This document shows, in pieces, positions 7,304 through 64,000 of a DNA stretch of 64,000 bases; position 1 is the first letter of the stretch, and each line of letters opens with the position of its first letter. The stretch comes from Micromonospora sp. WMMD1102. GTDB taxonomy: Bacteria > Actinomycetota > Actinomycetes > Mycobacteriales > Micromonosporaceae. The translations under genes were made by a program, and so were the position numbers. Below the pieces are notes generated by a model that was not told the DNA's origin, did no database searches, and worked only from the letters and a program-made list of their open reading frames with translations. The DNA is taken from the NCBI RefSeq assembly GCF_029626265.1, contig NZ_JARUBN010000001.1, forward strand, positions 8,559,001 through 8,623,000, read 5' to 3'.

Positions 7304-7321
7304 GTCTCCTCCTCAAGCTGA

Positions 7322-7381: not shown

Positions 7382-7384
7382 TGG

Positions 7385-10203: not shown

Positions 10204-10331
10204 GCCGCTCCCTCCTTCGGGTCGGGTCCCACGGTCGGCGGCGCGTGGTGAAATTCGGCGCCGTGACCTGATGTGGGTGTGGAATGTCGGCGATGTGGGA
10301 GCAGAGATTGCCAGGATCAGGCGCAACGTGT

Positions 10332-10347
10332 CAACATGTTGGCCAAC
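10332..10347. promoter_or_regulatory. Overlapping palindromes in divergent promoter region
   Basis: The 216-base gap (10204-10419) separates the dipeptidase-led operon from the divergent ATPase genes. In it, CAACATGTTG (10332-10341) and GTTGGCCAAC (10338-10347) are both perfect 10-bp palindromes sharing GTTG, giving three alternating GTTG/CAAC half-sites. This is a good candidate operator for controlling both directions, possibly by the two-module AsnC-type protein at 2.2-3.3 kb. No binding data exist; the call rests on symmetry and position. Confidence 0.45.
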
Positions 10348-10419
10348 TCCGGCGCAGATCACGGGCTGGGTGACAGAAATCGTTACGGCGGGAAACAACA
10401 CGGAAATTCGGGAGGTGTA

Positions 10420-30500: not shown

Positions 30501-33500
30501 ATGCAGGACGCCCGGTGGACGACGATCACGCCGTCGCAGTTCGACCACGAACGGGCCGCGTTGGAGCACATCCGCCGGCTACTGCCCGACGCCGAGCCGT
30601 ACCGCGCCTGGTCGAACTTCACCTTCACCGCCGACACCGGCCACGTCTACGAGATCGACCTGCTGGTGGCAGCTCGGGCCGGCCTCTACCTGATCGAGAT
30701 AAAGAGTCTGCACGGCCGGCTGACCAACAGCGGTCCGAACTGGATCGCCGACAACCAGCGGGACAACCGGGGATCGGTCCGCACCTTCGACAACCCGTTG
30801 CACCTGGCCGACCTCAAGGCCAAGCGACTCCGCTCGCTGCTCGACCGGCAAGCTGCGAAGCAGAAGCTCAAGGTGCGGGTCCCGTTCATCCAGGGGGCGG
30901 TGTTCCTCTCCGCGCCGGACCTCCAGGTCCAGCTCGACGAGCACCAACTGCACGGGGTGTACGGTCCGGAGCCGCACCCGGGGCAGCCGGCCGGGCCGCT
31001 GCCGGGCATCTGGTCAGACCTGCTCGGTGCGCTGCCCCGCGACGAGCGCCGCCAGGTGACCCCGGAGGTGTCGAGGGCGCTGCCCAGGTTGCTCCGGGAG
31101 GTGGGCATCGCGCGGAGCCGCCGCTACGAGCAGGTCGGCTCGTGGCAGCTTCAGGCCAAGCCGTTCGACGTCGGCCCGACCTGGCAGGACCATCTGGCGG
31201 AGCACGCCCAGTTCGCGCACGAGCAGCGCCGGATCCGGATCTATCTCCTGGAGCGCAACTCCGCCAAGGCGGAACGGGCCAGCATCGAGCGGGCCGCCCG
31301 CCGGGAGATGATCGCCCTGCACGGGATCAGCCATCCGGGGATCGTGCAGGTCGACACGATGGAGCCGCACGAGGGCGGCCCGGCGTTGATCTTCCGGCAC
31401 GACCCCCGGGCGGTCCGGCTCGACCACTTCATGGCCCAGTACGGCGAGCGCCTCGACGTCGGCACCCGGATCGGGATGGTCCGGCAGCTGGTGGAGGCGA
31501 TCGGGTACGCCCACGGCCGCCGGCTCTACCACCGCAGCCTTTCGGCCCGGGGTGTCCTGGTCAGGCCGGGCCACCGGCAGCGGGGTGAGCCGGAGGAGGC
31601 GGCCTGGCTGCGCCCGCAGCTCCAGATCAGTGACTGGCAGGCGGCCACCCGCGGGCCCGACTCGGTCGGCGGCAGCGCGGACGCGCTGCGCATCTCCCCG
31701 TCGTCGCGGCTCGGTCCGCACCTGGAGCGCTCCGCCGAGGCATACCTGGCGCCGGAGTTGAGCGCGCCGGCACCGGACCCGGTGGCCCTGGACGTCTTCG
31801 GGCTGGGCACCCTCGCCTATCTGCTGCTCTCCGGTCAACCGCCGGCCGCCAGCCGGGCCGAGCTGCTGGCCAGGCTGGCGAAGGAGGACGGCCTCCGCCC
31901 GTCGTCGACTGTCGACTCCGTCTCCGAGTTCATGGACGAGCTGGTGCAGGCGGCCACCGCGCCGGTGCCGGCCCGCCGGCTCGCCTCCGTGGCCGAGCTG
32001 CTGGAGATGCTGCAACTGGTCGAGGAGGAGTTCACCGCGCCACCGGCGGTTGCCGAGGAGCAGATCGACGTCCTGGAGGCGAAGCTCGGCGACACGGTGC
32101 TCGACTGGCAGATCAGGAAGAAGCTCGGCACCGGTTCGACCTCCCGGGCCTTCCTGGCGGAGAACACCCGGACCGGCGCGCTGGAGGTGCTGAAGGTCGC
32201 ACTCTCCGACGAGAAGGCGGCCCGGTTGAGCCACGAGGCCCAGGTGCTGCGCGGGCTGCACAAGGACTCCCGGGTGATCAGGCTCGCCCGGGAGGAGCCG
32301 ATCGAGGTACCGCCGCGCTGGATGATCGTCCTGGAGCACGCCGGGGAGAAGACGCTCGCCCGCAAGCTCCGCGAGGACGGCCGGCTGACCGTCGACGAGT
32401 TGGAGACGTACTCCGACTATCTGTTCGGGGCGGTCGACCACCTCCAGGGCGAGGGAGTCTTCCACCGGGACATCAAGCCGGACAACATCGCGATCAGGAT
32501 CCGGCCGAACCGCACCCGCCAGCTCGTCCTCTTCGACTTCTCGCTGGCCGCGTTGCCGGTCGACGAGATCGAGGCGGGCACCCCCCGCTATCTCGACCCG
32601 TTCCTCGGCACCACCACCCGGCCCGTCTACGACGAGCAGGCAGAGCGGTACGCGGTCGCGGTCACCCTGCACGAGATGGCCTCCGGTGAGATCCCGGTCT
32701 GGGGTGACGACCTCACCAACCCGCTGCACACCGAGGGGCCGCCGGTGCTGGCGGTCGAGGCGTTCGACCCGGCGATCCGGAGCGCGCTCGTCGGCTTCTT
32801 CCACCGGGCGCTGCACCGGGACGCCGGGCAGCGGCACGCGTCGCTGAAGGAGATGCGGGACGCCTGGCAGCAGGTGTTCCGGCAGTCCGACCACACCGCC
32901 CCGGTCGGCTCGGAGCACCCGGCCGGCTCGGAGCATCCGGATGTCGAGGTCGAGACGACGGTCGCGGACCGGGACGAGGCGGCGGCCAGGGCGACCCGGG
33001 CGACCGTACTCGAAGCTTCCGGGCTGACCCCCCGGGCGGTGTCGGCGGCGCACCGGCTCGACGCGACCACCGTCGGGGACCTGCTCGGCCTGGGCTCGAA
33101 GCAGCTCTTCACTCTGCCGGGTCTGGGCGCCAAGACCCGGGGCGAGTTGCAGCAGCGGTTGCGGGAGTGGCGGGGCCGCCTCGGCGAGCAGGAGTCGGGT
33201 CCGGCGCCGTCGCGGAACCGTGCGGAGGCGCGCGCCGAGATCGCCGCCGAGACGGTACGCGCGGACGAGCGGTCGGGCGCCGACGGCAGGTCGCCGGCGG
33301 ACCTCGCCCGGATCGGGCTGGACGCCGTCACCGCCTTCCTGGTGCCGCAGCACCCGAACCAGAAGCAGGTGGAGGCGGTACGCCTGTTGCTCGGTCTGCC
33401 GGACGAGGCGGGTGCACTGCCGGACCTGCCACCCTGGCCGCTGCAGTCGCAGGTGGCGAAGCGGGTCGGGGTGACCCCTGGCCGGGTGGCGCAGTACCTG

Positions 33501-34931
33501 ATAGCCGAGCGCAAACGCTGGCACGCCGACCCGGTGCTGGCCAGCGTCCGCGCCGAGCTGATCACCCTGCTCGCCGAGAGCGGTCGGGTGATGGAGGCTA
33601 CCGAGCTGGCCACCGCGTTGCTGGTACGACGCGGATCGGGGGAAGACTTCGAACCGGTACGCCGGGCGGTGGCCCTTGCCGTGGTCCGGGCGGCCGTCGA
33701 GATCGACCCGCTCGCGGACGAGCCGAGATTCGCCGTACGGCGGCACGGTGATCCGTCGCCGGAGAGCCGGAACCGCGACCGGCTGCTGATCGCCCTAGAG
33801 GTGGCGGCCGACGAGTCACCCGACACCCCGTCCGCGCCGGCGCTGCTCGACCTGGCCGACGCGCTCGGCAAGGCGGCGGACCGGCTCGCCGAGCTGGAGG
33901 TGCTGCCGAGCCCGGCGACGGTGCTGCGCGAGCTGGCCGCCGTCACCGTGGGCGAGCAGGGCTTCCGGCTCGACGACCGGCGGATGGTGCAGTTGGCGGC
34001 GGTGGCTTCGGCGCGGGCGGCGGCCTCGCCCCGGCTGGAGATCTATCCGCGTGATCTCGATCCGGTGCGGGCACTGCGGCTGACCCAGGCCGGCCTGGTG
34101 CCGCCGTCGACCACCCAGCGGCGTGCCGAACTGCGCGAGAAGGACATCCAGCAGCGGGTCGCCGCACGGTTTCCGGAGATGCCGCCGCTGCCCGGCCATC
34201 CCCGGCTGGGGCACCTGCTCGCCGAGGCGGGCTTTCCGCTGATCTACCGGAACGGGGCCTATCACGCCCGGCCGGGGACCGGCTCGTCGACCAGGATGTC
34301 GTCGCAGCAGCGGCGGTCGACCGACAGCAGGATGACGATGTGGAACGCGGCCTCACCGGAGTTGGCCGCCGCGTTCCGGGCCGAGCAGCAGCTCAGCCGT
34401 ACCGGTGAGGAGGGCGGGTTCCGGGCGTTGACGGTGCGCACCGACCGGTATCCGGCCGCTCAGCACGAGCTGGTCCACCGGCTGAACGCGCGTCCGTGCA
34501 ATGTGGCGGGACGGTTCCTGGCGCAGCTGCGTACCCTGGTCGAAGCCCGGCCGAAGCCGACCTGGAAGACGGTGCTCGCCGCCGACGCGGCCGACCCGAA
34601 CTCGCGGGACGCGTTGAAGCTCGCCGAGTTCGCCACCCGGACCTGGCAGCAGCTCCGGCCGGAGCTGCTGGCCCTGCCGGACCCGCGGCTGCCGCTGCTG
34701 CTCTTCGACGCCGCGCCGCTGGCCCGGTACGGCGCGATGGAGCTGCTGGAGGAGTTGGCGGACCTGGCCCGGGGTGGGGCGGGGGCGGTGTGGCTGCTCT
34801 GCCCGATGGAGGATCCGGGGCAGCTTCCCCGGCTCGACGCCACGGTGGTGCCGGTGGCCCAGGACGAGTGGGTGACGCTGCCGGACGCCTGGGTGGCGAA
34901 CGAACACCGGAACGGCCGCCCGCCGCGGTGA
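30501..34931 (+). CDS. pglW: BREX type 2 serine/threonine kinase PglW
   Basis: A 1476-codon protein. The N-terminal NERD nuclease-related domain (about residues 15-130: EIDLLVAARAGLYLIEIKSLHG) is followed by a first kinase-like domain with a degenerate catalytic loop (LYHRSLSARGVLV, Ser instead of Asp). A second kinase domain then has P-loop LGTGSTSRAFLAE, catalytic HRDIKPDN (His655-Asp657) and DFS (Asp679) in place of DFG. A helix-hairpin-helix segment (VGDLLGLGSKQLFTLPGLGAKTRGEL) and a long C-terminal region follow. Domain order and size match PglW of the phage growth limitation/BREX-2 system, in which the kinase is needed for phage resistance. pglX and pglY lie further downstream on the same strand, separated by inserted gene blocks. 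Confidence 0.93.
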   Translation: MQDARWTTITPSQFDHERAALEHIRRLLPDAEPYRAWSNFTFTADTGHVYEIDLLVAARAGLYLIEIKSLHGRLTNSGPNWIADNQRDNRGSVRTFDNPLHLADLKAKRLRSLLDRQAAKQKLKVRVPFIQGAVFLSAPDLQVQLDEHQLHGVYGPEPHPGQPAGPLPGIWSDLLGALPRDERRQVTPEVSRALPRLLREVGIARSRRYEQVGSWQLQAKPFDVGPTWQDHLAEHAQFAHEQRRIRIYLLERNSAKAERASIERAARREMIALHGISHPGIVQVDTMEPHEGGPALIFRHDPRAVRLDHFMAQYGERLDVGTRIGMVRQLVEAIGYAHGRRLYHRSLSARGVLVRPGHRQRGEPEEAAWLRPQLQISDWQAATRGPDSVGGSADALRISPSSRLGPHLERSAEAYLAPELSAPAPDPVALDVFGLGTLAYLLLSGQPPAASRAELLARLAKEDGLRPSSTVDSVSEFMDELVQAATAPVPARRLASVAELLEMLQLVEEEFTAPPAVAEEQIDVLEAKLGDTVLDWQIRKKLGTGSTSRAFLAENTRTGALEVLKVALSDEKAARLSHEAQVLRGLHKDSRVIRLAREEPIEVPPRWMIVLEHAGEKTLARKLREDGRLTVDELETYSDYLFGAVDHLQGEGVFHRDIKPDNIAIRIRPNRTRQLVLFDFSLAALPVDEIEAGTPRYLDPFLGTTTRPVYDEQAERYAVAVTLHEMASGEIPVWGDDLTNPLHTEGPPVLAVEAFDPAIRSALVGFFHRALHRDAGQRHASLKEMRDAWQQVFRQSDHTAPVGSEHPAGSEHPDVEVETTVADRDEAAARATRATVLEASGLTPRAVSAAHRLDATTVGDLLGLGSKQLFTLPGLGAKTRGELQQRLREWRGRLGEQESGPAPSRNRAEARAEIAAETVRADERSGADGRSPADLARIGLDAVTAFLVPQHPNQKQVEAVRLLLGLPDEAGALPDLPPWPLQSQVAKRVGVTPGRVAQYLIAERKRWHADPVLASVRAELITLLAESGRVMEATELATALLVRRGSGEDFEPVRRAVALAVVRAAVEIDPLADEPRFAVRRHGDPSPESRNRDRLLIALEVAADESPDTPSAPALLDLADALGKAADRLAELEVLPSPATVLRELAAVTVGEQGFRLDDRRMVQLAAVASARAAASPRLEIYPRDLDPVRALRLTQAGLVPPSTTQRRAELREKDIQQRVAARFPEMPPLPGHPRLGHLLAEAGFPLIYRNGAYHARPGTGSSTRMSSQQRRSTDSRMTMWNAASPELAAAFRAEQQLSRTGEEGGFRALTVRTDRYPAAQHELVHRLNARPCNVAGRFLAQLRTLVEARPKPTWKTVLAADAADPNSRDALKLAEFATRTWQQLRPELLALPDPRLPLLLFDAAPLARYGAMELLEELADLARGGAGAVWLLCPMEDPGQLPRLDATVVPVAQDEWVTLPDAWVANEHRNGRPPR

Positions 34932-40571: not shown

Positions 40572-41558
40572 TCAGATTCTGCCGGCGATGGTCGCGAGCA
40601 GCGCGCGAAGCTCGGCCACGACGTCCGGCCCGAGCTGGGCGAAGTCGTGCTCGGTGAGCGCCTCACGACAGGTGTGCATCCGGCTCAGCAGGTCGGAACC
40701 GAAGCCGTCGTGCAGGGCGGACCGGGTCCGGTGGTCGAGGTCGGGGAAGAGTTCGGCGTGGGCGCGGGTCGCGTCCGGCGACTTGTGGATCTTGGTGAAG
40801 CCGTGCTTCATGTCGTAGTGACCGCGCTGTTCCGGCGTCAATTGTTTGAGCCGGTCGAGCCGGGCGGACGCCTCGGCGAGTTTGCCGACCCCGGCGAGCA
40901 CCTTGTCGGGTACGTAGTTCTCGGCCTCCCGGCGGACCAGGACGTGCACGCCGATGTCCAGTTCCTTGAGGGTTCTGGCCTTGTCGTGGCTGCCGGTCCG
41001 CTGGCGCGGGATGAGCCGGTCACTGTCGAGGACCGCGACGACCCGGATCACCCGGCGGAAGCGGTTGCCGGCGGCCAGCGCCGCCTTCATCAGGTCACTG
41101 CCGCCGCCGTGCCCGATCTCGACCCAGCGGTTGCGGAACGCGGTAAGGATCCGCTCATGATTGAGTACGTAGGCGACGGTCTCCAGGAAATGGCCGTCGG
41201 ATTCCTGGTTCTCCACCACGATCACCGCACGCTGGCACAGATCATCGGAGTAGTCGGCGAGGTTGGCCCGGGACACGGTCACCGGTTCGGTGGTCGCCTG
41301 GGTGGTGCCGGTCCAGGCGTTGACGGCCACGGCCGCGTCCTCGGCGAGCGCGGTGTAGGTGCCGGCGAGCTTCGGCAGGTGGCTCGACACGAAGTCGCGT
41401 ACCGCGGCGACGACGGCCACGTCCGCGACGACCCACTCGTGCCGCTCCTCGGCGAAGCAGCGCAGCAGGTCGTAGACGCGGTGCAGGTCCGCCAGGGAGT
41501 ACGGTCCGGTGCGGTCGTCGGTGTCGGCGAAGACCTCCGGGGCCAGCTCAACCCGCAC
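40572..41558 (-). CDS. TOPRIM/OLD-like (DUF4435-like) protein
   Basis: A 328-codon protein with a TOPRIM-like pattern in its middle: VIVVENQESDG (Glu116), VVAVLDSDR (Asp178, Asp180), then VHVLVRREAENYVPD with the ENY found in OLD-type and DUF4435 nucleases. The first 100 residues and the C-terminal helical part are not recognised. The start GTG 41558 overlaps the ATPase gene by 11 bases. A TOPRIM partner encoded beside an SMC-like ATPase recalls split OLD systems (PARIS AriA/AriB; compare fused GajA). Assignment is by motif only; a profile search would settle it. Confidence 0.6.
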   Translation of the reverse strand: MRVELAPEVFADTDDRTGPYSLADLHRVYDLLRCFAEERHEWVVADVAVVAAVRDFVSSHLPKLAGTYTALAEDAAVAVNAWTGTTQATTEPVTVSRANLADYSDDLCQRAVIVVENQESDGHFLETVAYVLNHERILTAFRNRWVEIGHGGGSDLMKAALAAGNRFRRVIRVVAVLDSDRLIPRQRTGSHDKARTLKELDIGVHVLVRREAENYVPDKVLAGVGKLAEASARLDRLKQLTPEQRGHYDMKHGFTKIHKSPDATRAHAELFPDLDHRTRSALHDGFGSDLLSRMHTCREALTEHDFAQLGPDVVAELRALLATIAGRI

Positions 41559-42849
41559 TGGCGTCCCGCTTCGCCCACTGGGCCCGGGCCAGCGCCCGGG
41601 TCTCCGTGTAGTCCTCGGAGAAGATGCCGGTCGGCCAGTAGTCGAGGTTGCCCTCGGCGTCGATCGTGATCCGCCGGGCCTGGGCGGCACCGTCGGACGG
41701 TTCCACGAAATAGACGGCCACGGTGTCGGGGTCCACCTTTCCTTCGGCGATGCGTCGCCGGAGCCGGAGCAGGAACGTCTCGCTGTGCGTCTCGATCAGG
41801 AACCGGACCGGGGTGGCGTCGACAGCCGCGAGATAGAGGTCGGCGAGGTCGGCGTGCGCGGCCGGGTGCAGGTGCAGCTCCGGCTGCTCGATGATTTCGA
41901 GTACGGGTCGATCCGGTGGACTGACCACGTCGAGTGCCCGCTGGACGAAGATCGGCAGGGCCTGGGCGACCCCGGTGCCCGCGTCGGCCAGGTTTACCGC
42001 GAAGTCGGTGCCGGCCGCGGAGCGGAGTACGACGGACCAGACCTCGCCCCGGCTGACCAGGTCCAGGGTCCAGCCGGGCAGGAGTTCGGCGAGCCCGGTA
42101 TTCACCTGCCGGATCAGCTCGCCCTGCCGGCCGGCGGTGTCGCTGGCGAGGATGCCGGCGGCGTGCAGTCCGGTGCTGCCAAGCTCCTTCGGCATCCGGG
42201 CGGGGAGCAGGTAGCGTCGCTGCGGCTGCTCCCGGAACGGCCCGAAATAGCGGACGGAGGGAAAGTAGTTCCGGAACCTGACTGCGGCCAGCAACTCGTT
42301 GACCATCTCGTTCGGAAGCGACGGATCTTCCCGCCGCAGCAGGGGTGGCTCGGCGGGCAGTAGCCCGTGGAAGGGGACCGGCAGGTCGCTCCACACCTGG
42401 TCGCCCAACTCGACGGCATAACGGGATGGCTCGGAAGGGTCGTTCAGCTCCCACTCGAGGTGGGCCAAGCGCACCCCGGACTGGGACAGCTCCAGTTCGG
42501 AGACCACCTGGGTGTCGTAGCGGTCGCGGTTGACGTTCTGCACCGTGGCCCTGAGTCGGGTCGGCGAGAGCGGGCTGTCGACGGTCAGGTCGAGGTTGAT
42601 GCTGCCGTGCGGGCGGCGGCCGTGGATCAGGTCGACGAAGAGGCCGACCAGCCCTTCGCCGAGGGCGTCGAGGTCGAGTGGGGTCGGCGCGTCGGTGTGG
42701 ATGCCGGAGTCGAGCAGCACCGGGGCGCGTACCAGGGCGCTCTTGCCGGAGTTGTTGCGGCCGAGGACCAGTGTGATGGGCCGCAGCTCGATGTCCTGCC
42801 GTTGGGCAAAGCATCGATAGTTGCCGAGGGCCATCCGGACCAGAGACAT
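41548..42849 (-). CDS. AAA ATPase, DUF3696-type (OLD/AAA15-like)
   Basis: A 433-codon SMC/OLD-like ATPase: Walker A GRNNSGKS (residues 30-37), a coiled insertion, signature-like region NLADAGTGVAQALPIF, Walker B with EQPELHLHPAAHADLADLY, and LIETHSETFLLRLRR. The C-terminus has ITIDAEGNLDYWPTGIFSE, matching the DUF3696 pattern. I chose ATG 42849 (MSLVRMALGNYRCF). It is the first gene of the operon and divergent from the WXG gene at 42933 across an 83-base gap. It probably powers or senses for the TOPRIM-like and DUF262 proteins encoded after it. Confidence 0.88.
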   Translation of the reverse strand: MSLVRMALGNYRCFAQRQDIELRPITLVLGRNNSGKSALVRAPVLLDSGIHTDAPTPLDLDALGEGLVGLFVDLIHGRRPHGSINLDLTVDSPLSPTRLRATVQNVNRDRYDTQVVSELELSQSGVRLAHLEWELNDPSEPSRYAVELGDQVWSDLPVPFHGLLPAEPPLLRREDPSLPNEMVNELLAAVRFRNYFPSVRYFGPFREQPQRRYLLPARMPKELGSTGLHAAGILASDTAGRQGELIRQVNTGLAELLPGWTLDLVSRGEVWSVVLRSAAGTDFAVNLADAGTGVAQALPIFVQRALDVVSPPDRPVLEIIEQPELHLHPAAHADLADLYLAAVDATPVRFLIETHSETFLLRLRRRIAEGKVDPDTVAVYFVEPSDGAAQARRITIDAEGNLDYWPTGIFSEDYTETRALARAQWAKRDASAG

Positions 42850-42932
42850 GGGCCACACCATAGTCGGGTGATCGGTTGGTTGCGTACCGCCATGATGGAG
42901 GGCCTGGCCGGCCGGCGGTAGCGTGGACAAGC

Positions 42933-43262
42933 ATGGGGGACGAGGTTCGTGCCGACCCGGTGGAGATCGTCAGGGTCGCGCAGTCCTATCTGGACAACTC
43001 CAGCGAACTCGCGTCCGCGTTGCGTGCGGTGCGCGCCGACGCCGTGCTCTCGCCGGCCGACTTCGGGCAGGTCAGCCCGGCCGGGCAGCTCACCGACGCC
43101 TACAACACGGTGACTGCCGCTGCCGGCACGGCCGTCGAGCGGGTCATCGGGGTGCTGGAGGTCGACAACGAGAGTCTGCTCCACGTCGCCTTCGCCTATC
43201 GGCAGGCCGACGAGCGGGCGGCCGAGCGGCATCGTCGCGACCATCCGAACATCCCGATCTAG
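42933..43262 (+). CDS. WXG100/ESX-like small helical protein
   Basis: A 109-codon protein of two long helices: VEIVRVAQSYLDNSSELASALRAV and SPAGQLTDAYNTVTAAAGTAVERVIGVLEVDNESLLHVAFAYRQADERAAE. The ending YRQADERAAE is of the YxxxD/E type found on type VII secretion substrates. It lies 14 bases before the large RTX-toxin gene, so it is probably a chaperone or co-secreted partner of it. Confidence 0.7.
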   Translation: MGDEVRADPVEIVRVAQSYLDNSSELASALRAVRADAVLSPADFGQVSPAGQLTDAYNTVTAAAGTAVERVIGVLEVDNESLLHVAFAYRQADERAAERHRRDHPNIPI

Positions 43263-43276
43263 GAGAGGACTCGCCG

Positions 43277-45109
43277 ATGGGCATCCCGCCGGAGGATCGG
43301 GAGATCCGGGTCGACGCCGCGTTCTGGGACCTGCAGGCCAACCCGGGCCGGATCGAGAGTGCGGCGTCCGCGTGGCGGCGCTTCGGCAGGGCGACCGTCG
43401 CGGTCGGCGACGACATCGAGGCGGACAGCCGGAACCTGCTCGGCTCGCAGTGGTCGGGAGCGGCTCGCGACTCGTTCGGCCAGCACCAGTCAAAGGTGTT
43501 CGGCAGCCTCGACACGATGGGCGGCCAGGCCGACCGGCTCGCCTCGGCGCTGGAGGGTGTGGCCGAGCTGCTGCGGTGGTATCAGAACGCGCTCGATGGC
43601 GAGCGTGAGCAGATCATGGGCGCTGTGCCGAGCTGGCGTTCGGGTGGTCAGATCGTCTTCCGGTGGAACCAGCCCGAGCAGGCGACCCAGGTCAGCGAGG
43701 CGACCAACCGGGCCGGCAACCTGCGCAAGGAGCTTGCGGATGCCCTGAAGGGCAAGCTGAGCGGCTTCTCCGCCGCGGAGTGGGACGCCGTCTCGACGCA
43801 GTGGGACAGCGTCTCCTCCGGTACGGCCGATCCGTTCATGCTGCCTGCGGAGGTGACCGGCGTCTCGGTGCTGATGGTCGACGGCCGGGCGGTGGTCAAC
43901 ACGGGTCCGGGCAACGACAACGTCAGGGTGACCCGGGACCCGGCGACCGGGCAGGTGGTCGTCGAGGTCAACGGCGTCGCGTATCGCTACCCCGAGGGCA
44001 CGCCGGTGACAATTCGCGCCGGGGAGGGCAACGACACGGTCGAGGTGCCCGCGGGCGCCAACCTGAGTCTCACCCTGCTCGGCGGCGACGGCAGCGACAA
44101 ACTGCGTGGCGGGGACGGCGACGAACGGATCGTCGGCCTGCACGGCGACGACACCATCTCCGGCGGCGCCGGGAACGACTATGCCTCGGCCGGCTCCGGC
44201 CGGGACTACGCCGACGGCCAGGGCGGCGACGACCTGCTGGCCGGTGGGCGGGGCGACGACGTCGTCTACGGGCTGTCCGGGAACGACAACATCGCCGGCG
44301 GTGAGGGCCGGGACTACCTCGAAGGCGCGACCGGCGACGACACCGTGCACGGCGGGACCGGCCGGGACATCGTCTCCGGTGGCCGGGACAACGACCGGCT
44401 CGACGGCGGCTCGGGCGACGACGTGGTCTACGCGGGGCATGGCCGCGACACGGTCTCGGGTGGCGGTGGGGCCGACACCGCCTACCGGCAGGACGAGGAC
44501 CAGGTGGCCGGGGTGCGCCAGGACATCCGGATCGAGGTGAGCGACGCGGCACACTACATCAAGATCGACGGGCCGGCCGAGTTCCAGGAGCGGGTCCGTG
44601 CCGACCTCGACATGATGCGCGCCTCCCCGATCGGGCAGCAAATGCTCGCCGAGCTGGACGACATCCACAACGACTCGGCCGCCGTCGCCGCCGACTGGCC
44701 CGTGCTCGGGGACATCGCGTACCAGGGCAACCCGCTGGTCATCGTCGCTGACGACGCCAACAAAGCCTCGTACAGGACGAACTGGGTCCTGGGCGAGGAC
44801 TACAAGGTCAGCTACAACCCGGAGCGGCTGTCGACGGTGCCGTCGAACGAGCGCCCGCCGGTTGTGGGTCTCTTCCACGAACTTGCGCACGTCTACGACT
44901 TCGGAAACGACACCTCCGCCTCCGGCACCCATCAGGGGCCGGACGATGTCGGGGTCAATAACAGCGAACGGCAGGCGGTCGGCCTGCCGATCGACGAGGA
45001 CGAAGACCCGAGCACGCCCGACCAGGTCGACCCCGACCACCCCTACCAGTACACCGAAAATGCTCTGCGTGACGAACTGGGCCTGCCGAAGAGGACGTCC
45101 TATTCATGA
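43277..45109 (+). CDS. Type VII-type polymorphic toxin: WXG, RTX repeats and M91-like metalloprotease
   Basis: A 610-codon protein. Residues 1 to about 190 form a helical WXG/ESX-like region (NLLGSQWSGAARDSFGQHQSKV). Residues about 268-402 carry some 15 consecutive RTX-type nonapeptides (GGxGxDxxx, e.g. LRGGDGDER, ISGGAGNDY, LDGGSGDDV), expected to bind calcium after export. The C-terminal domain has a zinc motif HELAH (His534, Glu535, His538), then TSASGTHQG and NNSERQAVG, resembling NleD-like M91 effector peptidases. The ATG at 43277 follows AGGAGAGG. The next gene overlaps the stop. Most likely a secreted toxin against competitors or host; the cleavage target is unknown. Confidence 0.8.
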   Translation: MGIPPEDREIRVDAAFWDLQANPGRIESAASAWRRFGRATVAVGDDIEADSRNLLGSQWSGAARDSFGQHQSKVFGSLDTMGGQADRLASALEGVAELLRWYQNALDGEREQIMGAVPSWRSGGQIVFRWNQPEQATQVSEATNRAGNLRKELADALKGKLSGFSAAEWDAVSTQWDSVSSGTADPFMLPAEVTGVSVLMVDGRAVVNTGPGNDNVRVTRDPATGQVVVEVNGVAYRYPEGTPVTIRAGEGNDTVEVPAGANLSLTLLGGDGSDKLRGGDGDERIVGLHGDDTISGGAGNDYASAGSGRDYADGQGGDDLLAGGRGDDVVYGLSGNDNIAGGEGRDYLEGATGDDTVHGGTGRDIVSGGRDNDRLDGGSGDDVVYAGHGRDTVSGGGGADTAYRQDEDQVAGVRQDIRIEVSDAAHYIKIDGPAEFQERVRADLDMMRASPIGQQMLAELDDIHNDSAAVAADWPVLGDIAYQGNPLVIVADDANKASYRTNWVLGEDYKVSYNPERLSTVPSNERPPVVGLFHELAHVYDFGNDTSASGTHQGPDDVGVNNSERQAVGLPIDEDEDPSTPDQVDPDHPYQYTENALRDELGLPKRTSYS

Positions 45110-45823: not shown

Positions 45824-48001
45824 GTGATCGATCGTCGGGCGCTGCTGAAGGACCTTCAGGGCCAGGTCAGGGCGTTGGAGAAGGACCTGGCCGAGCAGAT
45901 CGGCGGCTCCGGCGAGCACTACGACAAGCTGCGGTCGGAGTACGACCGGGCGTTTGCTTTGAAGCGCACGGCGGCGACCTGGGCGGCGTGGCGGGACGAG
46001 CGGGTGACCCAGACGGCGGTGGCCTGGGTGTTGGGCTCGGTCTTCGTCAGGTTCTGCGAGGACAACGGGCTCTTCGGTGACGTCTGCTATCTGGCCGGGC
46101 CGGAGAAGGACCGGGCAGTGCTGGCCGAGGAGTCGCAGGACGACTACTTCCGGCGACACCCGGAGCGGACCGACCGGGACTGGCTGCTGGCGTCGTTCGA
46201 GCACATCGGCGGGACGCAGGCCGGGCGGCTGCTCTTCGACCCCGAGCACAACCCGGCGTACCGGATCCCGATCAGCCACGACGCGGCCAAAGCGCTGATC
46301 GGGTTCTGGCGGCGGCGGGACCAGGCCGGGACGCTTGTGCACGACTTCACCGACCCGGAGTGGGGGACCCGGTTCCTCGGCGACCTCTACCAGGACCTGT
46401 CGGAGGCGGCACGGAAGCGGTATGCGCTGTTGCAGACGCCGGAGTTCGTCGAGGAGTTCATCCTCGACCTGACGCTGACCCCGGCGGTCAACGAGTTCGG
46501 CCACGAGACCATCAAGGCGATCGACCCGACGTGCGGGTCGGGGCACTTCCTGCTTGGCATCTTCCGAAGGTTGATGAAGGAGTGGGAGGAGCAGGACCCG
46601 GAGCGGGACCGCTGGGAGATGGTCAGGGCGGCGCTGGAGTCGGTACACGGGGTCGACATCAACCCGTTCGCGGTGGCTATCGCGCGATTTCGCCTGCTCC
46701 TCGAAGCCATGCGCGCTGCCGATTTCGCAGACTTCAAGCGAGCCCGCAGGTATGAGTTTCCCATCCGGATTGCGGTCGGCGACTCCCTAATCAAGAACCG
46801 TCAGGGAACCCTCTTCGATGACGTAGATGAGTTGGCTCAGTTTCGATACGTTACCGAGGACATCGACAAATTCCCGGGACTCCTGACAGAGAACCGGTAT
46901 CACGTCGTTGTTGGCAATCCACCTTACATTACGCCGAAGGACAAGGAGTTGAATGAGCTGTACCGAAGGCTCTACAAGGACGTATGCACCGGAAAGTATG
47001 CGCTATCAGTTCCCTTTGTGAAGCGGTTCTTTGGCCTGGCTAAGCGACCTGAGTCCGATGGACGTGGATCGGGCTACGTGGGCCAAATCACAGCGAATTC
47101 ATTTATGAAGCGCGAGTTCGGTCGGAAGCTTATTGAGCACTACTTAGCCGAGAAGGTTGACCTCGCTTACGTCATCGATACGTCAGGTGCACATATACCT
47201 GGCCACAGTACACCAACTGTAATCCTTGCTGGTCGGCGCACATCGGCAATACAGCGTGCCGACACGATCCGTACAGTAATGAGCAACCGCGGAGAACCAG
47301 AGGAACCTTTCGAGCCAGATAATGGCAAGGTCTGGCGCGCGATTAAAGCCCAGTATAACCAGCCTGGCTCGGAGAGTGAGTGGATCTCTGTCGCAGATTT
47401 GCCTCGAACTCAGCTTTCAATTTACCCCTGGAGCCTCGCTGGAGGCGGCGCCGGGGAGCTAATGGCGGCACTCGAGAACGGTTCGTTGGCAAAACTCTCC
47501 CAGTTCACAGAGCTTGCTGGATTCGTGGCCATTACGGCTGAAGATGATGCCTTCTTCTCGGGATTGCGGCATCTGCAACGTAAGCGGATCGAATCGATCA
47601 GGCCAGTGGCTACCGGGGAAGTTGTCCGGGATTATGCAATATCTTCGCACTTGCACTGCATCTTCCCTTATGATGCCGATCTTCGCCCCGAGAAGCTCGG
47701 TAATATCTCGCAATCCATCAAGCTACTGTGGCCCAACAGGCGGATGCTCCAACGCCGCAAGCGCTTTGGCGTCGTAATCGAGGCGATTCCTTCGCTGAGG
47801 TGGTATGAGTTCGGTGAACTCTATCGCGACAAGCTGTCGACGCGCCTTTCGATTGCCTTCGCATTCGTTGCAACCCATAATCAATTTGTGCTTGACCGAG
47901 GTGGAAAGGTGTTCAACCGGTCGGCCCCTGTCCTTAAGTTGACGGATGGGATGCCTGAAAGTGACGTAACTAATCAGGTCGGTCGGTTCGGGCCGGTTTG
48001 A
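45824..48001 (+). pseudogene. pglX: PglX adenine methyltransferase, N-terminal part cut by IS66 element
   Basis: The frame encodes 714 PglX residues plus 11 residues read from the inserted element (VTNQVGRFGPV). Methyltransferase motif I is DPTCGSGHFLL (Asp234) and motif IV is VVGNPPY (Asn365-Tyr368), diagnostic of the BREX-2 N6-adenine methyltransferase PglX. The GTG start follows GAGGTGGG. Base composition drops sharply from about 46680 onward (28 of 60 bases G/C at 47101-47160 against 44 of 60 at 46201-46260), suggesting an exchanged target-recognition segment. Both catalytic motifs lie before the break, but the fragment lacks the last 482 residues and is unlikely to work. Confidence 0.93.
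47958..47965. repeat. Target site duplication, left copy (IS66-type)
   Basis: AAAGTGAC, identical to 49468-49475. Eight-base duplications are characteristic of IS66-family insertions. Confidence 0.92.
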
Positions 48002-49467
48002 TCTTGGCGGGGTTGTTGGGCAGGATGTCCGGGTGCCGGAGATGCCGTCCATCGTGGAGTTGCTGGAGCGGCTCGTCGCGTTGGAGAAGGCCGTCGCGGA
48101 GCGGGATGCCCGGATCGCGGTCCTGGAAGCGGAGAATGCCGAGTTGCGGCGTCGTCTGGGTCAGTCTCCGCGGAACTCGAACATGCCGCCCTCGGCGCAG
48201 GGGTTGGACAAGCCCGCGCCGAAGTCGTTGCGGGGCCGGTCCGGGCGCCGCTCGGGTGGCCAGGACGGCCATCCGGGTCGTACGTTGCGGCAGGTCGAGA
48301 GCCCGGACGAGACCGTTGTTCATGAGCCGGTCGCGTGTGGCGGGTGCGGCGGCGGGCTGGCCGGCGCGCCGCTGGCCGCGGTGACCCGCCGTCAGGTGTT
48401 CGAGATTCCCTCGGTCGTAGCCCGGGTCACCGAGCACCGGCTGAACATTCGCCGGTGCGGGTGTGGTGCGGTGACCTGCGCGGACGGCCCGGCCGGGGTG
48501 GACGCGCCGGTGCAGTACGGGCCGAGGCTGGCCGCGATCGTGGTGTATCTGCTGGTCGCGCAGTTCGGGGCGCAGAAACGCGTCGCCCAGGCCGTCGGGG
48601 ATCTGTTCGGGGTGCCGATCTCGCAGGGCAGCGTCGCGGCGTTGACCGCCCGCGCCGCCCGCCGGCTCGAGGGTGACTTTCTGGCCGCGATCCGCACCGC
48701 GCTGACGGCGGCACCGCTGGTGCATTTCGACGAGACCGGGTTCCGGGTCGCAGGCAAACTGCACTGGGTTCACTCCGCATCGACAGGTAAGTACAGCCTG
48801 CTCTACGTGCACCCGAAACGCGGCCGGGACGCCATCGACGCCGGCGGGGTCCTGCCCGCTTTCACCGGGATCGCCGTGCACGACGCCTGGGCACCTTATG
48901 ACTGCTACCCACAGGCCACCCACGCCCTGTGCTGCGCCCATCTGCTGCGGGAACTGGTAGCCGCCGCCGAGCTCGACCCGTCGGCAACCTGGGCCGCGCA
49001 AGGCATCGACGCCCTGCTGGCCCTCAAGAAGGCCACGGACGATGCTGTGGCAGCCGGCCACGATCGCATCGATCCCGAGATTCTGGCCGCGGGGGTCGCC
49101 TCGTTCCGCCACGCCGCTCTGGTCGGGGTCAAGGACCACACCGGCCAAACCACAGCGATCGGCAAGAAACTGGCCGCGCTGGCCCGCCGGATGACCGAAC
49201 GCATCGACGACTACCTCCGATTCGCGCACCAGCCAGGACACTGCCCGTTCGACAACAACGCCGCCGAACGGGAAGTCCGCATGGTCAAAATCCGGCAGAA
49301 AATCTCCGGCGCGATGCGCACCCTGACCGGCGCGGAGCAGTTCTGCCACCTGCGCTCATATCTCGCCACCGCCGCCAAACACGGCATCAATCTCTACGAC
49401 GCCCTCGTCCAGCTAACATCGGGCCGACCCTGGATCCCCGCAATCAACTGATGACCTGAGTAGTCAC
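47966..49467 (+). mobile_element. IS66-family insertion sequence (1502 bp) inside pglX
   Basis: The termini are GTAACTAATCAGGTC (47966-47980) and GACCTGAGTAGTCAC (49453-49467), inverted repeats matching at 13 of 15 positions. The element carries one transposase gene and no accessory ORFs, as in the ISBst12-like branch of IS66. It is flanked by the perfect 8-bp duplication AAAGTGAC. Removing the element and one duplicate joins ...GMPESD to HLGLVGLLNSSSG in frame. The transposase reads in the same direction as pglX. Confidence 0.93.
48033..49451 (+). CDS. IS66-family transposase
   Basis: A 472-codon DDE transposase. A leucine-zipper-like N-terminus (LLERLVALEKAVAERDARIAVLEAENAELRRRL) is followed by the IS66 zinc-binding region (CGGCGGG ... 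CGCGAVTC). Catalytic residues lie in VHFDETGFRV, VHDAWAPYDCYP and DNNAAEREVRMVK. The C-terminal EQFCHLRSYLATAAKHGINLYDAL is the conserved IS66 tail. The stop lies at the inner edge of the right inverted repeat. It appears intact, so the element may still be mobile. Confidence 0.96.
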   Translation: MPEMPSIVELLERLVALEKAVAERDARIAVLEAENAELRRRLGQSPRNSNMPPSAQGLDKPAPKSLRGRSGRRSGGQDGHPGRTLRQVESPDETVVHEPVACGGCGGGLAGAPLAAVTRRQVFEIPSVVARVTEHRLNIRRCGCGAVTCADGPAGVDAPVQYGPRLAAIVVYLLVAQFGAQKRVAQAVGDLFGVPISQGSVAALTARAARRLEGDFLAAIRTALTAAPLVHFDETGFRVAGKLHWVHSASTGKYSLLYVHPKRGRDAIDAGGVLPAFTGIAVHDAWAPYDCYPQATHALCCAHLLRELVAAAELDPSATWAAQGIDALLALKKATDDAVAAGHDRIDPEILAAGVASFRHAALVGVKDHTGQTTAIGKKLAALARRMTERIDDYLRFAHQPGHCPFDNNAAEREVRMVKIRQKISGAMRTLTGAEQFCHLRSYLATAAKHGINLYDALVQLTSGRPWIPAIN

Positions 49468-49475
49468 AAAGTGAC
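49468..49475. repeat. Target site duplication, right copy (IS66-type)
   Basis: AAAGTGAC directly follows the right end of the element and repeats 47958-47965. Confidence 0.92.
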
Positions 49476-50924
49476 CACCTAGGTCTGGTGGGTCTGCTGA
49501 ATAGTTCCAGTGGATGTTTCTGGTTAAAGCAGGTCAGTCACGATAAGGGGAGCCAATCTGGCACTGGCGGCTTTATGCACGACGAGTGGGAACGGTTTTA
49601 CGAGTTTACTGCTACAAAGTTGCAGGAGTTTCCGCTGCCGAAGGCGTACCCGTTGGAGTTGGCGCGGGAGTTGGATGCGGCGGCGCAGCGCTTGACGGCG
49701 GTGAGCCCGGCGGCGGTCGCGGAGGAGGGCGTGCCGACGCGGGAGCGGTTGTCCGCTGCGGAGGCTGAGTGGCAGTCGACGCGGGGACGGATGATCGCGC
49801 TCCAAGAGGAGCTGGACTGGCAGGTCTACCACCAGTATGGGTTGTTGCCGGACGAGCTGACCGCGCCAGCCGAGTCTGTGCCGGCGTTGCGGCTTGGCGA
49901 GCGTGCCTTCGAGATCGTGCTCGCTCGCAAGATGGCGGAGGGTAAGGCTGAGACGCAGTGGTTCGCTCGGCATGGGTCGACGCCGATCACCGAGCTGCCG
50001 CAGCACTGGTCGCCCGAGTATCGGGCGGTGGTGGAGAACCGGATCGCGGTCATCCAGCAGAACCGCTACCTGGCGCTGATCGAGCGGCCCGAGTGCAAGC
50101 GGCGGTGGGCCACCGAGGGCTGGGACCGGATGCTCGACAAGGCGCTACGGGACTGGCTGTTGGACCGGTGCGAGGCGCGTGAACTGTGGTACGCCCCGGA
50201 CGAGAATGGCGTTCCGCAGCCTCGTCCGCTGTCGGTCGCGCAGCTTGGGGACGAGCTGCATCGGGATCCGGACTTCCTCGCCGTGGCGGACCTCTACGAC
50301 CCGGGCAAGGAGCTGTCGGTCCTGCTCACCGAGCTGATTGAACCCGAGCACGTGCCGTACCTGGCGGCGTTGCGCTACACCGCCACTGGGCTGGAGAAGC
50401 GGGCCGGCTGGGAGCACGTGTGGGACCTGCAACGGCAGGAGGACTCGGCGCCCGACGAGCCGGCCAAGCGGAAGATTCGTGACCAGATCCCGGTGCCGGA
50501 GAAGTACAAGCCGGCCGACTTCCGCAAGAACAGCTACTGGAGCAACCGGGGCAAGCTCGACGTGCCGAAGGAGCGGTTCATCTCTTACCCGCAGGCGGGC
50601 CGGGACAACGATCCGTCGCTGCTGATCGGCTGGGCTGGCTGGGACCATCGGGAGCAGGCGCAGGCGCTGGCCGTACTCATCGTGCAGCGTGATGAGCAGG
50701 CAGGCTGGTCGGGGGAGAAGTTGACACCCCTGCTGGCTGGGTTGCGGGAGGTAATGCCCTGGGTGAAGCAGTGGCACGGCGAGTTCGACCCGGAGATCGG
50801 TGACTCGCCCGACGCTATATATGACGGCTTCCTCGCCGACCGGCTTAATGTTCACGGCCTCACCGGCAGTGATCTAACGGCGTGGGGCCCTCCTGCCGCA
50901 GCACGGGGCCGACGACGGGGCTGA
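49476..50924 (+). pseudogene. pglX: PglX, C-terminal part after the IS66 element
   Basis: The frame continues PglX with HLGLVGLLNSSSGCFWLKQ and SHDKG, then the typical C-terminal segments LPKAYPLELARELDAAAQRL, ELDWQVYHQYGLLPDEL, WERHG-like RWATEGWDRML and LIGWAGWDHREQAQALA. This supplies 482 residues that complete a 1196-residue PglX when joined to 45824-47965. The first open start here (GTG 49488) has no ribosome site, so separate translation is unlikely. Composition returns to high GC from about 49620 (43 of 60 G/C at 50101-50160). Confidence 0.92.
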
Positions 50925-51101: not shown

Positions 51102-52469
51102 CAGGGTCATTGCGTTCTGGGGTAGCTGCTGGTCATTGCAGTGATGAGGTCGTGCGGGCGACGGTCGGCGCGTCTGGTGGCGCGGGCGATGTTGGTATCG
51201 CCGTTGGTGCGGTGGTAACTGGCCGCGGTGTTACGTAGCGTCGCCATGATTGCGGGGCCGGTGCCGGTTCTGGCTTGGTGGAGGTCTTCACGGAACGTGA
51301 CGTCGCGGACATGATGGACCTGATTCTCGATCAGCCACTCGTTTCGGGCCCAGGACTGCAGGTCCGCGGGTTGGGCGTGCTCGGCGGGGAGGGAGATGGT
51401 GTAGTAGGCGGTTTCCCTGGTGGTCTTGCCCTTGAGGGTGCGGGTGCGGGTGATCCGGACGGCCTGCTCGGCGTGAGGGAACAGCAGACCGCCGGGGGTG
51501 GCTACGGTGAGCGCCTTGACCGTGCGGGTCTCCCGCCGGCCGTGACCGGTTTCGCGGCGTCGGTCACCCACCGGGACCTGGGCCCAGGGCAAGGCCTTGA
51601 GCTGGGCAAACACGGTCGGCTGGTTACCTTTGACCGGGATGAGCAGGTCGGCGCCGCGAGCGGCGACCTCGGTCGCGTGGCTGGTCTGTGTATGGAGGGC
51701 GTCGGCCACGAAGATGAGGCCGTCCAGGCTACCCAGAACCTGTTCGACCGCGTCCAGCAGTGGGGTGAACGCGGGGATTTCGTTGCTTTTCGCGGCCACG
51801 GTGACCTGAGCGAGCACGATGCCGGTGCTGGTGTCCAGCGCGGACAGCAGGTGGACCCGGCTGCCATCGGCGCGGCGGGCGCCGCGCATGGTCTTGCCGT
51901 CGATGGCGATGACGATCCGGTACCGCCGAGGTCGGGGCGTGACCGGAGGCGGGACGCGGGTACGCAGCCAGTCGGCGAGCACGGTGGCCAGCAGGTCAGC
52001 GTCCAACCTGGTCAGCAGCCGCCAGATCGTGGTCGCGGCCGGGACGGCGCGGATGAACCCGAGCCGGGCCCTGGCGAGGTCATCGAGGTCGTGCAGCCAG
52101 TCCGCGATGGCCGCGAACGATGATGCGCCGGCGGTCACGGCGCACACCGCGACGGTCAGTAGCCCGACGAGCGGGTAACGCGCCCCACGCGGGGACCGGG
52201 GGTCCGCGATGGTGGCCAACGAGTGCTGGAGCCCAGCTTCTTCACCCTCGGTGACAAGGCGCGGTGGCGAGTCGGTGGGGGTGCGAACTGCGGACAGTAC
52301 CTGAATCGGGCATGCTGACATCGCGGGTGAGGTCCTCAAGGTGTCCGGGAGCGTCGAGAACTCCATGATCACCTACAGGCCTCACCCGCCTTCCTCAACC
52401 CCGCAAGGGTCCGCCCACCCCGGGAATCCCCAGTTCAACGGCCACTCGACCAAACACGCAATAGCCCTG
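51102..52469 (-). mobile_element. ISAs1-family insertion sequence (1368 bp)
   Basis: The ends are CAGGGTCATTGCGTTCTGG (51102-51120) and CAAACACGCAATAGCCCTG (52451-52469), imperfect inverted repeats sharing CAGGG..ATTGCGT. They are flanked by a perfect 10-bp duplication GCGCAGTACG (51092-51101 and 52470-52479). It lies in the gap downstream of pglX and interrupts no recognisable gene. The flanking host sequence is otherwise unremarkable. Confidence 0.9.
51107..52372 (-). CDS. ISAs1-family transposase
   Basis: A 421-codon transposase with ISAs1 (H-repeat-associated) hallmarks: LATIADPRSPRGARYPLVGLL, the first catalytic Asp in IAIDGKTMRGARR, the second in FVADALHTQTSHA, and the C-terminal WLIENQVHHVRDVTFREDLHQARTGTGP containing the Glu. 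The start is GTG 52372 or ATG 52366. The gene is intact and fills almost the whole element. Confidence 0.95.
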   Translation of the reverse strand: MIMEFSTLPDTLRTSPAMSACPIQVLSAVRTPTDSPPRLVTEGEEAGLQHSLATIADPRSPRGARYPLVGLLTVAVCAVTAGASSFAAIADWLHDLDDLARARLGFIRAVPAATTIWRLLTRLDADLLATVLADWLRTRVPPPVTPRPRRYRIVIAIDGKTMRGARRADGSRVHLLSALDTSTGIVLAQVTVAAKSNEIPAFTPLLDAVEQVLGSLDGLIFVADALHTQTSHATEVAARGADLLIPVKGNQPTVFAQLKALPWAQVPVGDRRRETGHGRRETRTVKALTVATPGGLLFPHAEQAVRITRTRTLKGKTTRETAYYTISLPAEHAQPADLQSWARNEWLIENQVHHVRDVTFREDLHQARTGTGPAIMATLRNTAASYHRTNGDTNIARATRRADRRPHDLITAMTSSYPRTQ

Positions 52470-62068: not shown

Positions 62069-64000
62069 ATGCCGGAGCAGACCCCCTTACCGCTGCTGCG
62101 CGACGTCATCGTCATCCCGGAGTCCCCGTCCGCGAGTGACCTGGTGCTCCGGCTCGCCGACGGCATCACCGACGCCGAGGCGACTTTCAAGGAGTACGTC
62201 ATCCCGCCCCGCCTGGTCGACAACTTCGACCAGGCGCTCCGGCTGATCCAGAACGCGCTCACCACCGGAGTTTCCCGGGCCGCCTATCTGCACGGCTCGT
62301 TCGGCTCCGGCAAGTCGCACTTCATGGCAGCGTTGCACGCCCTGCTGCGCGGTGAGCACGCCGCCCGCCGCCGGGAGGAGTTCGCCCCGCTGCTGGCCCG
62401 GCACGACGGCTGGCTCGACGGCCGGCGCTTCCTGCTGGTGCCCTTCCACATGATGGGGGCGAAGTCGCTTGAGCAGCGGGTCCTCGGCGGCTATGTCGAG
62501 TATGTCCGCAAGCTGCACCCGGAGGCCCGGATCCCGGCGGTGCACCGCACCGACGCGCTGCTCGACCAGAGCCAGCACCTGCGCGCCCAGATCGGCGACG
62601 AGGCGTTCATCGCCGGCCTGCCCGGCGGCGAGGAGGACGACTGGGGCGACTCCGACGGCTGGACCAGCGAAAAGCTGGACGCCGCCTTCGCCGCCGCCCC
62701 GCTGCACGACCCGAAAACTGCCACCCCCCAGGACGAGCTGCGCCGCGACCTGGTCAACGACCTGCTCAGCACCTGGCAGCAAGGGTTCTTCCGGAACGCC
62801 CTCGAAGACAAGGAAGGCTTCGTCTCCCTCGACCGGGGGCTCACCGAGATCGCCGCGCACGCCAAGGAGCTGGGCTACGACGGCCTGGTCCTCTTCCTCG
62901 ACGAGCTGATCCTCTGGCTCGCCAACAGCATCGGCGACCAGCGCTTCGTCGCCCGCGAGATCCAGAAGATCACCAACTTCGTGGAGGGCTCCGAGGCCAG
63001 CCGCCCGATCCCCATCGTCACCTTCATCGCCCGGCAGCGTGACCTGCGGGAACTCGTCGGCGAAGACGTCACCGGCGCGCACGACCTGGCCTTCCACGAC
63101 ACCCTCAACCTGGCCAGCGGCCGGTTCGACGTGATCAACCTGGAGGACCGGAACCTGCCGGCGATCACCCGGGCCCGGGTGCTCAAACGGGTCGGCGAGG
63201 ACGAGCAGAAGCACGCCCCCGCCGAAGCGGCGATAAACGAGGCGTTCCAGCGGATCACCCGGGTCCGCTCCGACGTCTGGGACGTGCTGCTCGGTACCGA
63301 CACCGGCAGCGGCGCCGACCTCGACTCCTTCCGGCTCACCTACCCGTTCAGCCCCGCCTTCCTCTCCACCCTGGTCTACGTCTCCAGCGCCCTGCAACGC
63401 TCCCGCACCGGCCTCAAACTGATGCGGCAGATGCTCGTCGACCGCCGCGACGAGCTGCGGCTCGGCCAGCTCGTCCCGCTCGGCGACCTCTACGACGTAC
63501 TCAGCCGGGGCGGCGACCAGCCGTTCACCGAACGGCTCAAGGTCGAGTTCGAGACCGCGCAGAAGCTCTACCAGACCCGGCTGCGGCCACACCTGATGGA
63601 CGAGCACCGCGTCACCGACGACGACCTCGAACGCGCCCGGCGCGGCGAGCAGCTCGACCGGGCCCTCGCCGGCCGGGTCCGTGCCTTCACCGGCGACGAC
63701 CGGATCGTCAAGACCCTGCTGCTCGCCGCCCTCGCCCCCTCGGTGCCAGCCCTGCACAACCTCACCCCGCGCAAGCTCTCCGCACTCAACCACGGCAGCA
63801 TCACCAGCCCGATCCCCGGCGGCGAGGTCGGACTGATCGGCCGCAAAATCGAACAACTGGCCGCCCGGTTCGGCGAGATCAAGATGCTGGACGGCGACGG
63901 GGTACGCCTCGAACTCGTCGGCGTCGACGTCGGCAGCGTGCTCAACAACGCCCGGCACCTCGACTCCGACGGCGGCCGGCAGAACATGGTCAAACGGCTG
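62069..64000 (+). CDS. pglY: BREX type 2 ATPase PglY, 3' end beyond window
   Basis: The first 644 codons of PglY, the large P-loop ATPase of the phage growth limitation/BREX-2 system. It opens with LLRDVIVIPESPSASDLVLRLADG, followed by Walker A HGSFGSGKSH (residues 75-84) and Walker B GLVLFLDELILWL (Asp278, Glu279). The following RQRDLRELVGEDVTGAH and FPYSPAFLSTL-type segment (YPFSPAFLSTLVYVSSAL) also fits PglY/BrxC-like ATPases. The full-length family is roughly 1200-1300 residues, so about half is present. pglZ would be expected next, outside the window. Confidence 0.93.
   Translation, partial: MPEQTPLPLLRDVIVIPESPSASDLVLRLADGITDAEATFKEYVIPPRLVDNFDQALRLIQNALTTGVSRAAYLHGSFGSGKSHFMAALHALLRGEHAARRREEFAPLLARHDGWLDGRRFLLVPFHMMGAKSLEQRVLGGYVEYVRKLHPEARIPAVHRTDALLDQSQHLRAQIGDEAFIAGLPGGEEDDWGDSDGWTSEKLDAAFAAAPLHDPKTATPQDELRRDLVNDLLSTWQQGFFRNALEDKEGFVSLDRGLTEIAAHAKELGYDGLVLFLDELILWLANSIGDQRFVAREIQKITNFVEGSEASRPIPIVTFIARQRDLRELVGEDVTGAHDLAFHDTLNLASGRFDVINLEDRNLPAITRARVLKRVGEDEQKHAPAEAAINEAFQRITRVRSDVWDVLLGTDTGSGADLDSFRLTYPFSPAFLSTLVYVSSALQRSRTGLKLMRQMLVDRRDELRLGQLVPLGDLYDVLSRGGDQPFTERLKVEFETAQKLYQTRLRPHLMDEHRVTDDDLERARRGEQLDRALAGRVRAFTGDDRIVKTLLLAALAPSVPALHNLTPRKLSALNHGSITSPIPGGEVGLIGRKIEQLAARFGEIKMLDGDGVRLELVGVDVGSVLNNARHLDSDGGRQNMVKRL

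Follow-up and report, generated by a model that had tools for sequence, protein, structure and literature searches.

When an insertion sequence (IS) splits a phage-defence gene and leaves the rest of the locus in order, has the cell acquired a switch, or has it lost a gene? The question is raised by a 64,000-nucleotide stretch of the genome of Micromonospora sp. WMMD1102, a soil-type actinobacterium (contig NZ_JARUBN010000001.1, positions 8,559,001 to 8,623,000, or G000:C1:8559001-8623000; hereafter, the window), in which an IS66-family element lies inside pglX, the methylase gene of a type 2 bacteriophage exclusion (BREX-2) locus that is termed locus A here. The most probable answer, to which a probability of roughly 0.88 is given, is that a recently amplified element of the ISBst12 type knocked out pglX within its recognition region and duplicated 8 bp, and that this is a simple insertional knock-out amid an IS expansion and not a programmed switch.

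The element and the interrupted gene

The element (Table 1) has terminal arms of 15 nt that are 87% complementary (13 of 15 positions), and it is flanked on both sides by the same 8-bp repeat. These ends and repeats had been described by the first-pass annotation of this DNA, and all tested coordinates agree to the base. Most of the 1502 bp is taken up by a single open reading frame (ORF) on the + strand, which encodes a transposase of 472 amino acids (aa); no search was aimed at TnpA or TnpB. The transposase matches DDE_Tnp_IS66 (PF03050, E=5.9e-42, positions 2-283 of 284) as well as zf-IS66 and DUF6444, in agreement with the earlier assignment to the IS66 family. The traits of the ISBst12 group are present, namely the IS66 DDE domain, the single ORF, the 8-bp duplication and ends that resemble those of ISDge4. 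ISDge4, a member of this group, likewise carries a single transposase ORF and produces an 8-bp duplication, and its ends (GTGACTACTCAGCA/GTAACTGCTCAGCA), when compared by eye, are nearly the same as those of the pglX element (GTGACTACTCAGGTC/GTAACTAATCAGGTC) (PMC12898284). While the movement of ISDge4 into a phytoene desaturase gene was observed (PMC12898284), that of the pglX element is deduced from identical copies. The pglX element is a known kind of mobile element, and this insertion is a new instance.

When position 47965 is joined to 49476, as at an empty site, the reading frame continues unbroken through 714 + 482 codons without a stop. The uninterrupted PglX of 1196 codons that had been predicted is thereby obtained, and homologues agree with it at the junction. 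Among 120 homologue loci (own genome excluded; some genomes occur among both the named and the unnamed loci), 115 give one match to each pglX half, and the two matches share a frame. In 83 of these 115 loci, the residues aligned to 714 and 715 directly adjoin each other, with no gap, and the aligned ends differ by 0-63 bases in the remaining 32. The PADLOC profile of PglX also covers the two parts in succession (Table 1). The rest of the gene is undecayed, as had been claimed: neither half contains a stop, and the ratios of nonsynonymous to synonymous substitution rates (dN/dS) against the closest intact homologue, from genome G092, are 0.165 and 0.181.

The composition of pglX is uneven. Its middle (46724-49625, IS excluded) is AT-richer than its ends (51-60% vs. 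63-73% GC), the same is found on average in 30 homologues, and the middle is also AT-richer than pglW. The dS against G092 reaches 1.0 in the 5' part of pglX, whereas six other genes lie at 0.34-0.55 and a seventh (60148-61002) at 1.35; the value of the 5' part would perhaps reflect an exchange of recognition-domain alleles.

Copies of the element were searched for in the genome, where the contig is 8.67 Mb long, and 40 of the 506 first-look candidates were scored. Among these, five full-length copies were found that are 100% identical, and each of the five lies between perfect 8-bp repeats whose sequence differs from copy to copy (AAAGTGAC, which is that of the pglX copy, CTCGCCGC, GGCGCAAG, CTTTCCGG and GTCGATTT). 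The insertion is recent, because the five copies are identical, their duplications are perfect and the pglX halves show no decay; the earlier statement to this effect stands. Matches to the element with E ≤ 1e-100 occur in 7 of 300 genomes of the family, this one included, and their identities outside this genome are 69-85%. One further copy (G000:C1:3273734-3275235, L005) cuts off the last 35 aa of an HsdS-like gene that neighbours an HsdR-like frame, and another ends the frame of a GMT-wHTH protein 5 codons early; of the remaining two, one splits a frame of unknown type and one lies near the start of another. It is suggestive that specificity genes of modification systems hold two of the five copies, but insertion into accessory islands could account for it.

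A second recently active IS type, flanked by 10-11-bp repeats, lies just downstream of pglX. We take it to be of the ISAs1 family. Among the matches listed, it has 17 copies at 100% identity in the genome, the window copy included. As two IS types have several identical copies each, an IS expansion appears to be under way in the genome. The ISAs1-like neighbour was considered as the cause of the loss of pglX and was rejected, since it begins 178 bp past the stop codon, outside the coding sequence.

Table 1. Features of locus A and of the insertion sequences in the window
Feature	Position	Strand	Evidence or remark
pglW of locus A	30501..34931	+	PDLC02512, E=0, 1-1398/1403
pglX 5' part, codons 1-714 (methyltransferase domain and most of recognition region)	45824..47965	+	PDLC02529 1-715/1189; Eco57I 273-455
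8-bp target duplication, left copy AAAGTGAC	47958..47965	.	read in sequence
IS66-family insertion sequence, ISBst12-type, single ORF	47966..49467	+	1502 bp
Left terminal inverted repeat of IS66-family element	47966..47980	+	15 nt
TnpC-like DDE transposase, 472 aa	48033..49451	+	PF03050, PF13005, PF20042
Right terminal inverted repeat of IS66-family element	49453..49467	-	15 nt
8-bp target duplication, right copy AAAGTGAC	49468..49475	.	read in sequence
pglX 3' part, codons 715-1196 and stop (end of recognition region, spacer, DUF7008)	49476..50924	+	PDLC02529 714-1185/1189; DUF7008
ISAs1-like element just downstream of pglX	51102..52469	-	transposase domains; arms; flanking GCGCAGTACG(C) repeats
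pglY start, runs past window end; then pglZ, brxD, brxHI	62070..64000	+	L019:2070-5879, 5876-8914, 8326-10236, 10233-12398

The interrupted locus and its divergent counterpart

All six genes of type 2 BREX (pglW, pglX, pglY, pglZ, brxD and brxHI) are present at locus A, pglX being split; from pglW to brxHI, the locus extends over about 42 kb and includes further genes. The other five genes are open, as had been supposed, and match their profiles nearly end to end. Their dN/dS values against G092 are 0.211 for pglW, 0.347 for pglY, 0.459 for pglZ, 0.159 for brxD and 0.200 for brxHI, the last two being covered in part. The split of pglX is the sole visible defect of the locus. The closest named relatives of its PglX, among the best 120 matches, come from Micromonospora sp. 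HM5-17 and Plantactinospora, which suggests a host near Plantactinospora within the Micromonosporaceae.

The recently amplified ISBst12-type element would have inserted into the DNA-recognition region of pglX, duplicating 8 bp on entry; according to a model, the cut falls within this region. Translation would then stop 11 codons into the element and yield a methylase of 725 aa, which is predicted to be without the end of the recognition domain, the spacer and DUF7008. Because the shortened methylase would be without these parts, locus A would neither mark host DNA nor restrict phage. Judged from the sequence, the insertion very probably switches the phage defence of locus A off. Recovery of an intact pglX would be infrequent and driven by the host, with no programmed switch behind it.

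A second, divergent BREX-2-type locus, termed locus B, is found at 5.498-5.530 Mb of the same contig (G000:C1; L017, L018). Its pglW, pglX, pglY and pglZ are open, and its genes are 35-55% identical to those of locus A (47-55% for pglX). No match to brxD or brxHI was found in 76.5 kb around locus B. A genome-wide search for BrxHI (BrxD was not searched genome-wide) gave one strong match, at locus A, and the others have E ≥ 5.6e-43. Consequently, only the four pgl genes of the six-gene type 2 set were found at locus B. In 1309 taxa with type 2 BREX, BrxHI is kept in 91% and BrxD in 88% (PMC12839542); locus B may either work without brxD and brxHI or borrow those of locus A. A 70%-identical relative of the IS66 element lies between pglW and a GmrSD-like gene at locus B.

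The first-pass annotation expected that precise loss of the element would reactivate BREX-2. This overlooks the second locus with its intact pglX. The natural knock-out of one pglX together with a divergent second locus lends itself to testing whether such loci function independently of each other, and the case bears on how often ISs, rather than slippage, turn such systems off.

Broken pglX genes in relatives

The surveys of relatives covered a family set of 300 genomes and a class set of 394 genomes, with the present genome in both. Two candidates were scored per genome, so that second copies and pieces can be missed. PglX was matched at E ≤ 1e-60 in 76 of the 300 family genomes and was found in 52 of the 394 class genomes.

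In M. haikouensis (G275), pglX runs to about codon 707, where its contig ends; about 65 codons are absent, and the gene is taken up again at the end of a second contig, next to the final part of a DDE_Tnp_4 transposase. We infer one IS between the two pieces; the frame at the left end is without a Pfam match. In this genome, pglY, pglZ, brxD and brxHI are open but pglW occupies two frames, and the contig end is contained in the locus of a named M. haikouensis record. The genome closest by PglX identity (89-91%), G058 of the same genus (L134), holds a stop-bearing remnant made up of codons 1-148 and a portion of the 3' end, and pglW, pglY and pglZ were not found in it. No relative with the same insertion was seen in the surveys, and hence none in which further decay of pglX would have pointed to fixation; the closest relative lost pglX by this different lesion. 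An independent IS66-type insertion interrupts pglX in G495 (contigs C7 and C50; L166, L167) near its own codon 239, aligned near 219. It has the ends GTAGCTGTTCAGCT/AGCTGAACAGCTAC and the 8-bp repeat CTGCAATC, and it carries a DUF6444-bearing frame, as does the window transposase; its middle is missing between the two contigs. The pglX halves of G534 (G534:C23, L165) are inverted and flank pglW, possibly through an inversion. In Streptomyces philanthi (L067), both pglX and pglW contain stops, and pglX has frame changes as well; G460 keeps a stop-bearing 3' piece of pglX.

Separate lineages have repeatedly had pglX interrupted by mobile elements, and neither the elements nor the positions are the same. 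Such recurrence fits ordinary gene loss, and a switch is not required. An insertion hot spot was considered, as the breaks at codon 714 (window), ~707 (M. haikouensis) and ~723 (P0011) lie close together, but it was rejected: the search favours such lengths, the elements differ and G495 breaks near codon 239. P0011 is a metagenome protein in which PglX is truncated at about codon 723 and followed by an unassigned tail; on visual inspection, P0026 (845 aa) resembles a product of a later frameshift. Several other candidate lesions were also set aside. The tblastn alignment places the pglX stop of G274 at the natural protein end and contains no internal stop for G266. The splits in G162, G504 and G450 lie at contig ends where no foreign sequence was seen and were treated as assembly breaks, and the two-piece matches of G202 and G259 are one open frame each.

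Related cases are known from other defence systems. Natural IS insertions in cas genes (163 cases, 20 IS families) likewise inactivate prokaryotic immune genes (PMC10359306). They differ in that the target here is a BREX-2 methylase, and neither BREX nor IS66 appears in the main text of that report (PMC10359306). In type 1 BREX, pglX can also be broken or present in partial copies (PMC9716671, PMC7513527), and its interruption is described in diverse microorganisms (PMC9716671); the lesions there are of another kind, namely truncation or a partial copy beside a site-specific integrase (PMC9716671, PMC7513527). Among the titles and abstract openings of the open-licence literature searched, no report of an IS-interrupted BREX-2 pglX was found. 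The window records the natural knock-out of a BREX-2 methylase by a clean and recent insertion, and the recurring inactivation of pglX by ISs is explained by ordinary gene loss.

Switch, selected loss or plain knock-out

The reversible, phase-variable state that had been proposed earlier would need the element to enter and leave pglX precisely and often enough for mixed on/off populations. The perfect 8-bp duplication and the frames that continue across the empty site would suit it, as would the phase variation of pgl in Streptomyces. In S. coelicolor, pglX is likewise the gene that goes off; however, the variation is attributed there to a G tract in pglX that slips at 10^-2 to 10^-4 (PMC4365076), whereas pglX of locus A has a 1.5-kb insertion and no slippable tract, its longest homopolymers, and its only runs of at least 5, being GGGGG at 46362 and 50711. 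ISDge4, the best-matched studied relative, is described as copy-and-paste and is set apart in this from other IS66 members (PMC12898284). As such an element does not vacate its site, precise loss driven by the element is not expected; the five identical copies fit copy-and-paste but are no proof of it. The target sites of the five copies all differ. Among the best 120 of 7928 protein matches, and in genome sets with one genome per species, no second strain with an occupied or an empty site was found, and only the window's own PglX exceeds 76% identity. A clean target duplication says "recent", not "reversible", because all five recently moved copies carry a perfect one, and it should not be read as a switch. 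A review describes IS events as typically low-frequency, one-way and distinct from phase variation, with one exception cited (PMC11868660). The switch is very unlikely, and it is unsupported rather than disproved. Certain points nevertheless weigh against a plain knock-out. Copy-and-paste is one paper's statement on the relative ISDge4 (PMC12898284), and locus B might supply PglX in trans. The border of the recognition domain in type 2 PglX is drawn from a model and a type 1 structure. The 714-codon piece retains the entire catalytic domain, so residual or two-piece activity may exist, and the 3' piece has its own open frame from a GTG at 49488. A split but working PglX, assembled from the N-terminal methylase and a C-terminal piece translated on its own, would make use of these two open pieces and of the shared direction of the IS and pglX. 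It is highly improbable, given the modelled cut within the recognition region and the absence of a sigma-70-like site in 49300-49700 (other promoter types not covered). An assembly artefact is hardly credible with a contig of 8.67 Mb and five copies that each have their own distinct duplication, and a misjoin is not expected to yield a perfect 8-bp repeat.

A further explanation accepts the knock-out but holds that it was selected: the loss of modification-dependent defence would be favoured, through the cost of PglX or the gain of foreign DNA, and IS insertions that achieve it would be kept. The HsdS-like gene truncated by an identical copy points in this direction, as do two other pglX genes, that of M. 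haikouensis, which breaks next to transposase sequence, and that of G495, which an IS66-type element interrupts. The PglX of S. coelicolor is described as toxic without PglZ (PMC4365076). At locus A, toxicity relief is not needed because pglZ is open. Base rates were taken from control genes read from match tables, not base by base; the class set was searched for pglX alone, so G495 is without a control. The family set holds two IS-interrupted pglX genes, and its tables show no stop and no IS-type split in pglY or pglZ (73 of 300 genomes each), except for pglY of G074, which is divided between two contigs and was read from the table alone; G033 is cut at contig ends. Some copies of pglW (88 of 300) are likewise broken or partial, with two frames in G275, a stop in G060 and several part matches. 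At 80 named loci, pglX was matched in all 80 (76 complete, 2 odd, 2 cut), pglW in 72 (61 complete, 9 cut, 3 odd, one locus being counted twice), pglY in 45 (29 complete, 16 cut, 0 odd) and pglZ in 25 (0 complete, 18 cut, 8 odd), the last being uninformative as the loci end there. Two interrupted pglX genes against none visible in pglY and pglZ is the direction expected for preferential loss, but the numbers are too small. Moreover, islands take IS insertions without selection, and the AT-richer middle of pglX could bias IS targeting. Such selected loss is unlikely, and so is a broader reading in which ISs repeatedly and selectively silence modification-based immunity. In its favour, one amplifying IS66 element has hit two specificity genes of different systems in this genome, pglX and the hsdS-like gene, and other actinomycetes have independent IS insertions in pglX. 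On this reading, with the duplication clean and the other genes of the locus open, the defence would lie dormant and could be revived by precise loss, as a rare event, or through recombination with a different pglX allele.

Other genes in the window surround the interrupted pglX. A GmrSD_N / PDC-M55C protein is encoded at 38886-40526, between pglW and pglX; its relatives adjoin pglX in locus B and lie near pglX in G092 and M. haikouensis. The 551-aa frame at 41279-42934 (- strand) is without family matches, and its relatives hold 5 stops in G092 and 3 in M. haikouensis, from which it appears to be decaying or not a gene. The island protein at 42923-45109 has WXG100 (below the cut-off), RTX-repeat and peptidase-M91 matches, and that at 53667-57194 is of the STAND-WD40 type.

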